Shown: positions 2,713 to 9,191 of the stretch, piece by piece | How positions within the stretch are numbered: position 1 is the first letter of the stretch | Layout of the letters: every line of letters begins with the position of its first letter | The notes under the pieces: model-generated | What the model saw: only the letters and a program-made list of their open reading frames with translations | Databases searched by the model: none | Told to the model about the DNA's origin: nothing | Source: an uncultured beta proteobacterium | Lineage (GTDB): Bacteria > Pseudomonadota > Gammaproteobacteria > Burkholderiales > Burkholderiaceae | Direction of reading: 5' to 3' | Length of the DNA: 34,449 bases | Assembly (NCBI GenBank): GCA_903837335.1 | Contig: CAILUH010000218.1 | Location: forward strand, 1 to 34,449 | Made by a program: the position numbers and the translations under genes

Positions 2713-2727
2713 TGATAATTGTTCTCA
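2713..2727 (+). promoter_or_regulatory. putative Fur box (TGATAATTGTTCTCA)
   Basis: Matches 12 of 15 positions of the 7-1-7 Fur model TGATAATnATTATCA (spacer ignored it is 12 of 14); lies just downstream of the TATAAT and upstream of the flavinylation operon. Confidence 0.55.
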
Positions 2728-2779: not shown

Positions 2780-3697
2780 ATGATGGCGGTAAGGGACCAA
2801 TTTAATGCATTGCACCCAAGAAAGTGTCTATTTATGGGTCTGCTTGTGCTGAGTAGTTTAGTAAACGCAGGTGAAGGCTTATTTGGGTGGATTTATACCC
2901 TCGATTTACAGCCCAAAGGCAGCCTTGAATTTGAGCAACGACTCCAACTCACTTCAGGTCAGGCTAATGGTAAATACGATTTTTGGTATTCGCGTTCTGA
3001 GCTTGAATACGGCCTAAGGGATGATATTCAAGTTGCAGCTTATCTCAACGCCTATTCAGTTGACGCTGCACAAAATTATATTAATCCAGAGGTTTGCAGT
3101 GCTCCTTCATGTACCTCTGGTTATGGCGTGCCAGATAGCGCCAATGAATTCGATGGCTATAGAAAAATGGGTTTAGACGGAGGTTCGCTAGAAGGTATTT
3201 GGCGTATTACTAACCCAGTTACCGAGCCCATTGGCATCGGTATTTATTTGGAGCCTACTTTAGGTAAATTAAAAAATGCTTTCGAGTCGCGCCTGTTAGT
3301 CCAATCTAATTTTATTGATGATCGATTAATTTTGGCAGGTAATCTCGTCTTAGAAAATGAGCAACTGAAATCGACTGGCGCAACCATTCCAGAATCCCTG
3401 ATTGATATTTTGCTGGGCGCTAGTTATCGTTTTGCCCCAAAATGGTCTGGTGGCATCGAGTATCGTTATCACACCGACTACAACAGTTATTTTTGGCAAA
3501 ACCAAGTACAAACCGCCAACTTTATTGGCCCTAATTTGCACTATGCCGATCAGCATTGGTGGGCAACGCTCGCGTGGCGCTACCAACTAGATGGGCAATG
3601 CATGGGCGAAGGTACTGCTGAGTGTTCGGGAGGTAATGTCTGGGATAGCCATGGCAAAAATGAAATAATCGCCAAAATTGGTTTTCCTTTCGGCTAA
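2780..3697 (+). CDS. predicted exported outer-membrane beta-barrel-like protein (DUF6662-like)
   Basis: Signal-peptide-like N-terminus, alternating amphipathic segments rich in aromatics (YDFWYSRSELEYGL, GGIEYRYHTDYNSYFW); SD AAAGGAG just upstream. Confidence 0.65.
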   Translation: MMAVRDQFNALHPRKCLFMGLLVLSSLVNAGEGLFGWIYTLDLQPKGSLEFEQRLQLTSGQANGKYDFWYSRSELEYGLRDDIQVAAYLNAYSVDAAQNYINPEVCSAPSCTSGYGVPDSANEFDGYRKMGLDGGSLEGIWRITNPVTEPIGIGIYLEPTLGKLKNAFESRLLVQSNFIDDRLILAGNLVLENEQLKSTGATIPESLIDILLGASYRFAPKWSGGIEYRYHTDYNSYFWQNQVQTANFIGPNLHYADQHWWATLAWRYQLDGQCMGEGTAECSGGNVWDSHGKNEIIAKIGFPFG

Positions 3698-3705
3698 AAA
3701 ACCAG

Positions 3706-4245
3706 ATGCTTTGGAAACCGAGTTCAATTGTATTTTTAGCGGGAGCTAGTGCTATCAGTAGCTCTTGCCTCGCCCATGCCAGGATCTATATTTCCGTAGA
3801 CCAGGCGCAAAAAATATTATTTCCGGGTAGCCAATTTACTTTGCAGCCAACATTAATTGATCAAGCCTTACAGGCTAGCTTGAAAAAAGTCTCCGGTGTT
3901 CATTACCCCTTTCGGGGTGAGTATATATGGCGCGATCAAGCCGGTAACTACCTCGTCATTGATGAAGTCGTAGGTAAACATGAAATGATTCGCTACGCCG
4001 TTGGTATTGCTGCTGCTGGCACGATTCAAGGGATTGAAATTTTAGAATATCGTGAATCCTACGGCTATGAGGTGGCTGAGCAGCAGTGGCGTCAACAATT
4101 TGTTGGTAAAACCGCGCATGATCCACTCAAACTGAATCGCGATATCCAAAATATATCTGGGGCCACCCTTTCAAGCAAGCACATTACCGATGGTGTTAAA
4201 CGGGTCATGCACTTTTATCAAGTTGCCTTAAAGAACGCCAAGTAA
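3706..4245 (+). CDS. exported FMN-binding domain protein with covalent flavinylation motif
   Basis: Signal peptide; C-terminal NISGATLSSKHITDGV matches the [S/T]GAT flavinylation core of NqrC/RnfG-type FMN_bind domains; directly followed by apbE. Confidence 0.85.
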   Translation: MLWKPSSIVFLAGASAISSSCLAHARIYISVDQAQKILFPGSQFTLQPTLIDQALQASLKKVSGVHYPFRGEYIWRDQAGNYLVIDEVVGKHEMIRYAVGIAAAGTIQGIEILEYRESYGYEVAEQQWRQQFVGKTAHDPLKLNRDIQNISGATLSSKHITDGVKRVMHFYQVALKNAK

Positions 4246-5136
4246 ATGCAGGTAAATCAATGGCGCAGCTTAATGCGTTGCAAACCATTACTTGGTACCT
4301 ATGTGGAAATCACTGCACATACCGATGGTGACTATCCATTAGCGTACCGGGATCTTACATATTGCATTGAAAAGGCCTTCTCTACTATTCAAGATCTGCA
4401 CCATAGATTTAATTTCTACGCTGAAAATAGTGAGTTATCTCATCTGAACCGTTTGGCGCATTTGGGTCCATTGGCAATTTCACCCCAATTAAAAGCAATT
4501 TTATTGATTGCCAGCGAAATGCATTGCCACTCAGAAGGATTATTTAATTGTGGTATTGGTCAGTGCACTCTGAGGCTAGCAAAAGATCAGGTTCGCTTTG
4601 GGGATCTAGCCGACCTACAATTTCTAGCGGACGATCATGTCTATGCAATCCGCCCTTTATGTCTCAATCTCGGCGGCATAGCCAAAGGTTATGCGGTTGA
4701 TTGTGCAGTAGACATACTACTTAAACAGGGTGTAGCCGCAGGATGCGTTAATGCTGGTGGAGATCTGCGCGTATTTGGGCATCAAACTCAAAAAATTCAT
4801 CTGCGTATGCCACATCAATGTCACACCCTCATCGAGTTGGGCGTATTACAAAATGGGGCAGTTGCTAGCTCAGCCAATTATTTTTATAGCCCTACTTCTA
4901 CCGCCAACTTAGGTCAGAGAATCATTCATCCTCAACAACAGTTACCTAGCAACTCTCCGCACTCGTACTCGGTCATTGCGCCTCAATGTGTACATGCTGA
5001 TGCCTTAACTAAAGTTTTGGCCCTTTCACAGCAAATTGTTCATCCTTGCTTTGAGCGTTATGGCGCTAAACCATTTATTTTTTATCACGACGCAAATGAC
5101 ATCACTAACGCCACCCTCAAGAAGATCCGGCACTAA
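4246..5136 (+). CDS. apbE: FAD:protein FMN transferase
   Basis: MRCKPLLGTYVEITAHT, NLGGIAKGYAVDCAVDILLKQGVAAGCVNAGGDLRVFG and HADALTKVLAL motifs of ApbE; ATG follows the previous stop directly. Confidence 0.93.
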   Translation: MQVNQWRSLMRCKPLLGTYVEITAHTDGDYPLAYRDLTYCIEKAFSTIQDLHHRFNFYAENSELSHLNRLAHLGPLAISPQLKAILLIASEMHCHSEGLFNCGIGQCTLRLAKDQVRFGDLADLQFLADDHVYAIRPLCLNLGGIAKGYAVDCAVDILLKQGVAAGCVNAGGDLRVFGHQTQKIHLRMPHQCHTLIELGVLQNGAVASSANYFYSPTSTANLGQRIIHPQQQLPSNSPHSYSVIAPQCVHADALTKVLALSQQIVHPCFERYGAKPFIFYHDANDITNATLKKIRH

Positions 5137-5140
5137 GGTC

Positions 5141-5572
5141 ATGCCAACTTGGCAAAGGTACCTCAGTTATCCGAGCTTTTGTATTTGTATGGGTAGCGGT
5201 CTTCTCTACCTCGTTATTCAAGAATGGGCCAATGAGTTCAATTTTTTAGTCAATCGCTGGATATTGGTGATGCATGGCGTATCTGCGATGGTTATCGCCA
5301 TCATTTTCGGTGCTGCACTTCCCATCCATATCCGTATTGGACTGCATTTAAATAAAAATATTCTCAGCGGCCTTAGCCTTACCGCTGTCTTACTCGTTTT
5401 AATGATCTCAGGGCAATTACTGTATTACGGCAGTGGTGATAGCCGTGAATGGATTATTACGGCGCATTGGGTGGTCGGCGTTTTAAGCATTACCATCGCC
5501 TACTGTCATATTGTGCTGCGATCAGACCGAAAAATGGCCCTCTTTAAGCAGGCGGATGATCCTCGGGATTAA
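5141..5572 (+). CDS. four-TM membrane protein, probable diheme cytochrome b-like electron carrier
   Basis: MPTWQRYLSYPSFCICMGSGLLYLV...; His pairs in TM2 (MHG...PIH) and TM4 (AHW...YCH). Start at 5141 (4 nt after the apbE stop) preferred over the track start at 5036, which overlaps apbE. Confidence 0.65.
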   Translation: MPTWQRYLSYPSFCICMGSGLLYLVIQEWANEFNFLVNRWILVMHGVSAMVIAIIFGAALPIHIRIGLHLNKNILSGLSLTAVLLVLMISGQLLYYGSGDSREWIITAHWVVGVLSITIAYCHIVLRSDRKMALFKQADDPRD

Positions 5573-6141: not shown

Positions 6142-7158
6142 TTACGGTGCATCTTTGATGCCATTTTCGATCACAAACTTACCCCATAGCGCAATCTGTT
6201 TACCAATCCAATCTTTAGTGGCTTCGGGTCCGCCAGACACAATATCAATACCTTGAGCGCGCAATTTATCAGCGACTGCCGGGCTTTTCAGCGCTTTAGT
6301 AATAGCTTGATTCATTGCATTCACAATCGCGGGTGGCGTTTTGGCCGGTGCCAATACCGCCCACCAAGCAGGCGCATTAAATCCAGGGAAGCCACTTTCT
6401 GCAATCGTGGGGACTTTCGGTAATTCGGCGGTACGTTTCGTAGTAGTCACTGCCAAAGGAATAACGCCGCCACTATCGATATGCGGCTTGACTAAGAACA
6501 CCGAACCTATCGCGAGGGGAACTTGTCCACCCAGAATATCTTGCATCAAAGGTCCGCCGCCCCGATAAGGCACATGAACCCAATCAAAGCCAGCAGTTTT
6601 AGCCAAACGCGCAATCGCTAAGTGCCCTAAGCTACCCACACCAATTGAGCCATAGCTAAATTTTTTCTTGGCTTTCGATTCTTCCACTAATTGCTGAAAA
6701 GTTTTAATGCCTGAGTTTTTACTAGCCACTAAGACCATAGCTGAAGTACCGATTAAAGTAACCGGTGCAATATCAGTGATCGTGTCATAGGGCAATTTAT
6801 CTTTGATACTTGGATTTACGCCATGGGTATCAAAAACAACCGCAAAGGTATATCCATCAGGGTCTGAACGCACCATCGCGCCAGTACCAATTACGCCCGA
6901 AGCGCCACCAATATTTTCCACGATCACATTTTGTTTGAGTTCGGCCTGAATCGCTGGCGCCAAAATACGGGCTACTTGGTCAACCGACCCTCCCGGAGGA
7001 AAAACTGCAATTAAGCGTACCGGTTTTTGCGTCGGCCAAGATCCTAAGCCAGCAGCATTAGGTCTAGTCTGCCCATAGGCGTTAAGTCCTAATAAACTGG
7101 CTGCAAGGCCAAAAATAAAGCTCAAAAGGTAAGTTTTTGATTTGCTTCGGTAGCTCAT
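6142..7158 (-). CDS. Bug/TctC family substrate-binding protein
   Basis: WPTQKPVRLIAVFPPGGSVDQVARILAPAIQAELKQNVIVENIGGASGVIGTGAMVRSDPDGYT. Confidence 0.93.
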   Translation of the reverse strand: MSYRSKSKTYLLSFIFGLAASLLGLNAYGQTRPNAAGLGSWPTQKPVRLIAVFPPGGSVDQVARILAPAIQAELKQNVIVENIGGASGVIGTGAMVRSDPDGYTFAVVFDTHGVNPSIKDKLPYDTITDIAPVTLIGTSAMVLVASKNSGIKTFQQLVEESKAKKKFSYGSIGVGSLGHLAIARLAKTAGFDWVHVPYRGGGPLMQDILGGQVPLAIGSVFLVKPHIDSGGVIPLAVTTTKRTAELPKVPTIAESGFPGFNAPAWWAVLAPAKTPPAIVNAMNQAITKALKSPAVADKLRAQGIDIVSGGPEATKDWIGKQIALWGKFVIENGIKDAP

Positions 7159-7316: not shown

Positions 7317-8093
7317 ATGCCTCCTATCTTAAATATTGCCAGCTATCAATTTGTTGAGATTGAAAATCCCAGCGAATTACGCCAAAGCGCTTTGACTGAA
7401 TGTAATCGCCTCCAATTGAAAGGCACGATTTTGCTTGCGCCTGAGGGTATTAATTTATTTTTAGCTGGCGCTGAAAATGCAGTGCGTACCTTTCTTGCTT
7501 GGTTACGTAACGACCCACGTTTTGCGCAAATGGAAGCCAAAGAAAGTTGGTCTGAGGCACAGCCCTTTAGTCGCATGCTAATCAAAATTAAAGCCGAAAT
7601 TATTCGCATGAATCATCCTACTATTCAACCTAAAAAAGGTCGCGCGCAATTTATTTCCCCCAAGCAATTATGTGCATGGTTAGATCGTGGCACCGATGAT
7701 CTGGGTCGGCCGGTAGTCATGCTCGATACCCGTAATGCTTTTGAGATCGAATACGGCACCTTTGCAAATGCCTTGAACTTGCAAATTGATAAATTCAGCG
7801 ACTTTCCCGCCGCCATTCAGCCGCACTTCGCTGAATTGCAAGATAAAACTATTGTCAGTTTTTGTACTGGCGGCATTCGCTGTGAAAAGTCTGGCTTATA
7901 TCTACGTGAACTAGGTGCCCAACACAGCTATCAATTAGAGGGTGGCATCTTGAAGTATTTTGAAGAAGTCGGTGCAAATCATTATCAGGGTACCTGTTTT
8001 GTTTTCGATGACCGTGAAGCCCTCGAGCCCAGCCTTGAAACCATCGGCCTGGATCAGTCGATCCGCAAAAACCCGAGTAAAATAGAGGATTGA
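7317..8093 (+). CDS. trhO: tRNA uridine(34) hydroxylase, rhodanese-related (TrhO / UPF0176)
   Basis: LKGTILLAPEGINLFLAG, VMLDTRNAFEIEYGTFANAL and the active-site loop SFCTGGIRCEKSGLYL are TrhO/YceA hallmarks. Confidence 0.92.
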   Translation: MPPILNIASYQFVEIENPSELRQSALTECNRLQLKGTILLAPEGINLFLAGAENAVRTFLAWLRNDPRFAQMEAKESWSEAQPFSRMLIKIKAEIIRMNHPTIQPKKGRAQFISPKQLCAWLDRGTDDLGRPVVMLDTRNAFEIEYGTFANALNLQIDKFSDFPAAIQPHFAELQDKTIVSFCTGGIRCEKSGLYLRELGAQHSYQLEGGILKYFEEVGANHYQGTCFVFDDREALEPSLETIGLDQSIRKNPSKIED

Positions 8094-8171: not shown

Positions 8172-9191
8172 TTGAGGGATAAATTGATGAACAAATTGAC
8201 TAATCGGCTTGCGCCGATTTTTTTATCCATACAAATAGGTGTGCTGGGCTGTTTTACTTTAGGTTGGTCCCTGACTGGACTAGCGCAGCCCGCCCCCTAC
8301 CCCAATAAATCCATTCGCTTATTAGCGCCAGTAGCTGCCGGTGGTGGCCTTGATAAAATTGCCCGCACTGTTGCAGAGCGTTTAGGGCATGCCTTAGGAC
8401 AAACCATCATTGTAGAAAATCTCACTGGTGGAGGCGGCATTATTGCCTCGCAAGCTACTGCTAAAGCTACTCCTGATGGCTATACCCTCATGATTGGGTA
8501 TGTCGGCACCCACGGAACTAACCCCGCAATACGTAAGCTACCTTATGATGCAATTAAAGATTTCACGCCAATTGGCATGATTGGTGCAACACCAAATGTG
8601 CTCGTCTTAAATATGGCGCTACCCGTCAAAAATGTCAAAGAATTTATTGCCTATGCTAAAAAAAATCCTGCTAAATTAAGTTATGGCTCATCTGGTCCTG
8701 GAACGCTCACACATTTATCCATGGAACAATTTAAAAATGAGTCGGGTATTTTTTTAGTGCACATTCCCTACCGCGGTATTGCACCTGCCTTTACTGATTT
8801 AATGGGCGGGCAAACCCAAGCGATGTTCCCCGCGCTTTTTGCCGCGCTGCCCTATATTGAAACCGATAAAATTCGTCCGCTTGCTGTAACCGGGCCAAAC
8901 CGTAATCCAGCTATTCCTAATGTACCCACTTTCAAAGAGCTCGGTTACCCAGGCTTTGATGGCCAGCAATGGTATGGCATTGTGGGGCCCGCCAAAATGC
9001 CCGAAGCGCTTGTCAGTAAATTAAATACGGAATTGAACAAGGTTTTAAGTAATCCCGACTTTGCGGCCAAGTTAACCAGCGAAGCATTGGTCGTCATGCC
9101 CATGTCGCCCAGCCAATTTGGACGTTATATGGCGGACGATATCGCCCGCTGGACTAAAGTTGTCAAAGACCGAAAAATCGAAATCGAATAA
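8172..9191 (+). CDS. Bug/TctC family substrate-binding protein
   Basis: YPNKSIRLLAPVAAGGGLDKIARTVAERLGHALGQTIIVENLTGGGG...; track start is TTG, ATG at 8187 is equally plausible. Confidence 0.93.
   Translation: MRDKLMNKLTNRLAPIFLSIQIGVLGCFTLGWSLTGLAQPAPYPNKSIRLLAPVAAGGGLDKIARTVAERLGHALGQTIIVENLTGGGGIIASQATAKATPDGYTLMIGYVGTHGTNPAIRKLPYDAIKDFTPIGMIGATPNVLVLNMALPVKNVKEFIAYAKKNPAKLSYGSSGPGTLTHLSMEQFKNESGIFLVHIPYRGIAPAFTDLMGGQTQAMFPALFAALPYIETDKIRPLAVTGPNRNPAIPNVPTFKELGYPGFDGQQWYGIVGPAKMPEALVSKLNTELNKVLSNPDFAAKLTSEALVVMPMSPSQFGRYMADDIARWTKVVKDRKIEIE

Follow-up and report, generated by a model that had tools for sequence, protein, structure and literature searches.

We analysed a 34,449-nucleotide stretch of DNA (the window) from a Polynucleobacter-like host genome. 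At 2780-5572 on the plus strand, four adjacent ORFs are all present with intergenic gaps of 8, 0, and 4 nt, and their coordinates agree with an earlier sequence-only reading that had described four tightly packed genes on one strand. The same reading had called the first three genes a beta-barrel-like protein, an exported FMN-binding protein with an SGAT core, and the transferase ApbE; Pfam matches, the acceptor motif, and the predicted structure bear these identities out. The operon also occurs in a Polynucleobacter isolate, with an FMN protein 81% identical to that of the window. Genes for TctC/Bug-type solute receptors flank it in the window at 234-1256 and 6142-7158 (by Pfam) and at 8172-9191 (by sequence resemblance).

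Table 1 Features of the operon and its promoter region in the window.
Feature	Position	Strand	Length	Basis or remark
Predicted Fur box TGATAATTGTTCTCA	2713..2727	+		13/14 informative positions; ends 52 nt before first ATG
Gene 1, DUF6662 protein with signal peptide and predicted 12-strand outer-membrane beta-barrel	2780..3697	+	305 aa	PF20367; AlphaFold2; Foldseek
Gene 2, FMN_bind protein with export signal and putative flavinylation site Thr154	3706..4245	+	179 aa	PF04205; SGAT; N-terminus
Gene 3, ApbE, an FAD:protein FMN transferase lacking both lipobox and signal peptide	4246..5136	+	296 aa	PF02424
Gene 4, 4-TM b-type cytochrome-like protein	5141..5572	+	143 aa	Predicted structure and conserved His

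Gene 1 matches the DUF6662 profile at 44 bits (cut-off 27) over just 69 profile positions, and a homologue at locus L084 matches it over its full length with 364 bits. Structure prediction yielded a 12-strand barrel (pLDDT 83.8), and its closest PDB folds were the outer-membrane channels FapF (5o67, E 1.5e-9) and COG4313 (4rl8, E 1e-6). These share the 12-strand barrel fold with gene 1 (TM about 0.55-0.58), but the sequence identity is about 8-11%. A porin roughly 430-450 aa long stands at the position of the DUF6662 protein in loci L006, L057, and L145 (with a Porin_O_P match in L006 and L057), and locus L086 has DUF6662 plus a porin. We therefore rejected the barrel as a dedicated partner of the other proteins and infer from these swaps that it is a diffusion channel. 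Flavinylation of the barrel itself, as for DUF3570, was also rejected, as the TGAT of the window protein (residues 199-202) is found in no other barrel of the family and is attributed to chance. A DUF6662 match was present in 5 of 274 genomes of the class, the window genome included. Genes for the FMN protein, ApbE, and the cytochrome lie near DUF6662 in G146, G306, and G311; in G224 the DUF6662 match is under the cut-off, and the other three genes are not nearby. The operon supplies a context for this domain.

Gene 2 matches FMN_bind at 49.4 bits (cut-off 22) and begins with a Sec-type signal with an AHA cleavage site. Its SGAT (residues 151-154, context DIQNISGAT, Thr codon ACC at 4165-4167) agrees with the [S/T]GA[S/T] acceptor motif. 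The acceptor Thr is kept in 40/40 homologues; 23 of the 40 have GGAT rather than [S/T]GAT, so the motif reading calls for caution. Sec-type signals are found across the family, and two marine members have an RR motif. The nearest solved structure is RnfG (9eri), and RnfG and NqrC share with gene 2 an FMN_bind domain, which in those two proteins is flavinylated on Thr. Gene 2 differs from both in having a cleavable signal instead of a TM anchor and in standing in an operon without other Rnf/Nqr subunits. Membership in Rnf or Nqr was rejected, as the scores were far under the cut-offs (rnfG 33.9 versus 102 bits, nqrC 19.7 versus 144 bits), and a Pfam scan of neighbouring genes found no companion membrane subunits of these complexes. 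The motif and operon support the reading of the locus as a predicted flavinylation system, a type already described (Méheust 2021; Huang 2024).

Gene 3 is the sole ApbE of the genome (122.6 bits, cut-off 25.6). As judged by hydropathy and pattern rather than a trained predictor, a leader is missing from every one of the 37 family ApbEs whose N-terminus could be read (the L033 fragment was excluded), and in all 37 the catalytic domain begins no more than about 20 residues after the Met. The same approach found a hydrophobic leader in 30/30 canonical ApbE controls, a set biased toward the best matches, with a strict lipobox pattern in 23. A misplaced start was ruled out in the window, where the stop codon of the FMN gene closes the frame upstream.

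We read gene 4 from the ATG at 5141, whereas the mechanical ORF list begins at the TTG at 5036. The sequence-only reading had proposed a 4-TM protein with paired His. Its four helices were recovered by AlphaFold2 (pLDDT 89.0); its histidines are better described as four conserved residues, His45, His63, His109, and His123 (codons 5273-5275, 5327-5329, 5465-5467, and 5507-5509). They are kept across 24-38 homologues and are invariant in one alignment (A2), the lone exception being His63 in one truncated row. In the 24-row alignment, the homologues are 20-81% identical to the window protein. Helices 2 (35-70) and 4 (99-138) each carry two of these residues, His45 and His109 at ten residues from the helix start and His63 and His123 farther along. 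The residues lie at equal depth in the two helices of the model, and their predicted pairing would suit two stacked b hemes. Gene 4 exceeds no Pfam cut-off, the DUF4405 match (PF14358) reaching E=0.022 and 15.7 of the 26.7 bits needed. The homologue at L054, whose gene neighbours are the same, matches cytochrome b561 (PF01292, E 1.3e-5) and DUF4405 (E 0.0016, 19.3 bits), both under the cut-off. A search of solved structures gave chance-level antenna-protein matches only, and the nearest meaningful PDB fold, superoxide oxidase 5oc0, was not significant (TMq 0.68, E 0.79). By analogy rather than membership, we regard gene 4 as a DUF4405/b561-like cytochrome. DUF4405 proteins, as described in the main text of Huang 2024 (PMC11334425), are apbE-linked membrane proteins with four conserved His, as in gene 4, and an Oscillospiraceae member binds heme b. 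Gene 4 differs from that description in having four helices rather than six and in falling under the DUF4405 cut-off; in the clusters described there, Flavodoxin_4 and a flavin transporter are frequent members, where the window operon has DUF6662.

The box upstream of gene 1, TGATAATTGTTCTCA, is the sole exact match to the degenerate Fur pattern TGAKAATNRTTMTCA in the 2.0 Mb genome, which has one FUR-family gene. Neither this box nor the lack of a leader on ApbE had been picked up in the sequence-only reading. Among the annotated one-mismatch sites, a pair is found ahead of feoAB and a third ahead of a gene for an FbpA-like iron-binding protein; one further site that we inspected had no evident iron link. 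Both feoAB sites fall within locus L088 (6105-9843 of contig C6 of the window genome), between feoAB and a divergent gene for a 485 aa porin-like protein, itself a candidate iron-regulated porin. In the genus, 32 of 33 barrel-type operons have an upstream box scoring 12/14 or better (30 directly, two after correction of a late start), and many congeners have two boxes spaced 28-30 nt. The background control, 1 Mb of first-order Markov sequence, contained no match of 13 or more. Farther afield, operons of marine Gammaproteobacteria have boxes of 13-14/14, those of G193, G306, G054, and G039 have boxes of 13/14, and G146 has one of 12/14. Outside the genus, the distance from box to operon can reach several hundred nt or a few genes, and no plausible box was found at the operons of G311 (L085), G059 (L057), or G052 (L055). 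On sequence grounds, a predicted box in the promoter region that is kept in relatives makes the operon a putative member of the Fur regulon. A weak Fur-like site in the window (7973-7987, 12/14), inside the ORF 7317-8093 and ahead of the TctC-like gene (8172-9191), is near chance level.

Conserved co-occurrence, on which the sequence-only reading had staked its proposal beforehand, was found: the gene set travels together, both within the genus and beyond it, in other families. The FMN gene is present in 35 of 61 relatives and in 30 of the 37 genomes of the Polynucleobacter-type genus. Most loci of the genus contain the complete set with gene order unchanged, and these loci occupy more than one position on the chromosome. 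The full set is also found in three further families. The operon of G017 (locus L051, 5926-8484), a genome of 1.55 Mb that resembles endosymbiotic Polynucleobacter, looks decayed, with apbE in three frames and a shortened barrel and cytochrome. It is the only barrel-type congener operon without a Fur box, and the G017 genome has no TonB receptor match.

Within the genus, FeoB was detected in 25 of the 30 genomes with the operon FMN gene and in none of the seven without it (Fisher p 8e-5); among other members of the order, the figures were 5/5 and 6/19 (Fisher p 0.011), and both p values ignore relatedness. The operon-free congeners covered by an rpoB tree fall on three separate branches, one of them the nearest relative of the window genome, and all lack FeoB. 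This tree is of one gene and includes four congeners with the operon but without FeoB. In total, five congeners with the operon FMN gene gave no FeoB match, one from a 78% complete genome. Class-wide, a close FMN homologue occurs in seven genomes, of which four (G193, G306, G311, and G146) lack FeoB; we reject a universal dependence on FeoB because of these carriers.

The regulatory and co-occurrence evidence points to iron assimilation, a purpose that the sequence-only reading had not named. We consider it probable, at roughly two chances in three, that the operon encodes a Fur-repressed, quinol-fed diheme cytochrome/flavoprotein system acting as an assimilatory ferric reductase that supplies Fe(II). 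The path proposed in the sequence-only reading, from quinol through a diheme b-type subunit to a periplasmic flavoprotein, is likewise suggested by family membership, the conserved His, topology, and synteny. Under scarce iron, Fur would leave its site at 2713-2727 and the four genes would be made together. Small ferric chelates may pass the outer membrane through the 12-strand barrel. The 4-TM cytochrome, to judge by its four His and topology, would move quinol electrons to the periplasmic face. FMN would be placed on Thr154 of the FMN_bind protein by the operon ApbE, as motif and operon suggest; the cytochrome would reduce this FMN, which in turn would convert Fe(III) to Fe(II). The Fe(II) would enter through FeoAB in most of the genus, and feoAB of the window genome lies behind a similar predicted Fur box. 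The flavinylation, the heme, the quinol donor, the Fe(III) acceptor, and the role of the barrel as a channel are all parts that we infer. Sequence cannot give the direction of electron flow, but a reverse flow, with the flavoprotein oxidising a periplasmic donor and passing electrons to the quinone pool, is very improbable: no result of our analysis favours it, and the induction in iron starvation predicted from the Fur box fits Fe(III) reduction better than Fe(II) oxidation.

According to one study, P. asymbioticus relies on ferrous uptake (FeoAB) only and is incapable of using Fe(III) (PMC6629928). The conversion of Fe(III) to Fe(II) that this picture lacks could, in the genus, be provided by a conserved reductase under Fur control, for which the window operon is a candidate. 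TonB-independence of the carriers was rejected, as TonB receptors occur in 60 of 61 genomes, G017 being the sole exception. Nearly all congeners have 2-8 receptors, so other iron routes exist. The same counts, the Fur boxes at the operons, and the decay of the operon in the only receptor-free genome would also fit a ferri-siderophore reductase, in which the module reduces Fe(III) in siderophores imported through TonB receptors, a role suggested for FoxB and HiuB, and the barrel is accessory. The hiuABC system of Caulobacter crescentus offers a precedent: it is Fur-regulated, and its predicted diheme membrane reductase HiuB is proposed to feed Fe(II) to FeoAB (PMC13001220), as we propose for the window operon. 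We nevertheless think this alternative unlikely, as the operon has its own barrel and no TonB receptor gene is among its annotated neighbours. hiuABC also differs in composition, consisting of a PepSY protein, a TonB receptor, and a small membrane protein, with no ApbE or FMN protein.

Related cores lie near genes for a sulfite-oxidase-like protein and cytochrome c (L006) and for SoxYZ and MauG (L056). Together with the non-significant fold likeness of gene 4 to superoxide oxidase, these neighbours would suit a periplasmic enzyme that reduces a different acceptor, such as sulfur compounds, peroxide, or superoxide, with the Fur link reflecting heme cost or oxidative stress. Such a role is quite improbable given that Fur boxes are kept across unrelated neighbourhoods and that the operon and FeoB are lost together. 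It also fits poorly with G146, where imelysin, DHOR, imelysin, DUF1513, DUF6662, FMN, ApbE, and cytochrome genes are in line on one strand (L084, 4669-12425) and the Fur box precedes the first gene of this run.

Among known flavinylation systems, the PepSY-like clusters (ApbE, DUF2271, DUF4198, and PepSY) described in Méheust 2021 (PMC8238504) are reported to be Fur-repressed in Shewanella and Caulobacter, and iron reduction has been proposed for them. As described there, they share with the window operon an ApbE, an exported flavinylated protein (predicted in our case), and a His-rich membrane protein. In the window operon and its relatives, FMN_bind replaces DUF2271, a barrel (DUF6662 or Porin_O_P) replaces DUF4198, the 4-TM cytochrome-like protein lacks PepSY, and ApbE is leaderless; Pfam found no PepSY or DUF2271 domain in the four genes of the window operon. 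Its four-gene arrangement is absent from the main texts of Méheust 2021 (PMC8238504) and Huang 2024 (PMC11334425). New here are the predicted Fur box, the co-loss with FeoB, and a leaderless ApbE beside an exported FMN protein. The operon would add a compact heme/flavin module, from a freshwater genus, to the iron-linked flavinylation systems.

Co-export of the transferase with its target, which is usual though not universal, is not seen here: the FMN protein has a signal and ApbE has none, which poses the question of the compartment in which the flavin is attached. ApbE is usually a periplasmic lipoprotein, but Klebsiella has a cytosolic ApbE for a cytosolic target (PMC12052999). We tentatively suggest, as a possibility rather than an expectation, that a leaderless cytosolic ApbE flavinylates its target before export in a Fur-controlled ferric reductase with interchangeable barrels and a 4-TM diheme cytochrome. 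The flavin-bearing chain would then cross the inner membrane mostly via Sec, perhaps via Tat in the marine RR forms. At 4243-4248, the TAA of the FMN gene abuts the ATG of apbE without a change of frame, and reading through this stop would therefore yield a fused FMN_bind-ApbE protein that is exported. Many congeners instead have overlapping FMN and apbE genes, in a different frame.
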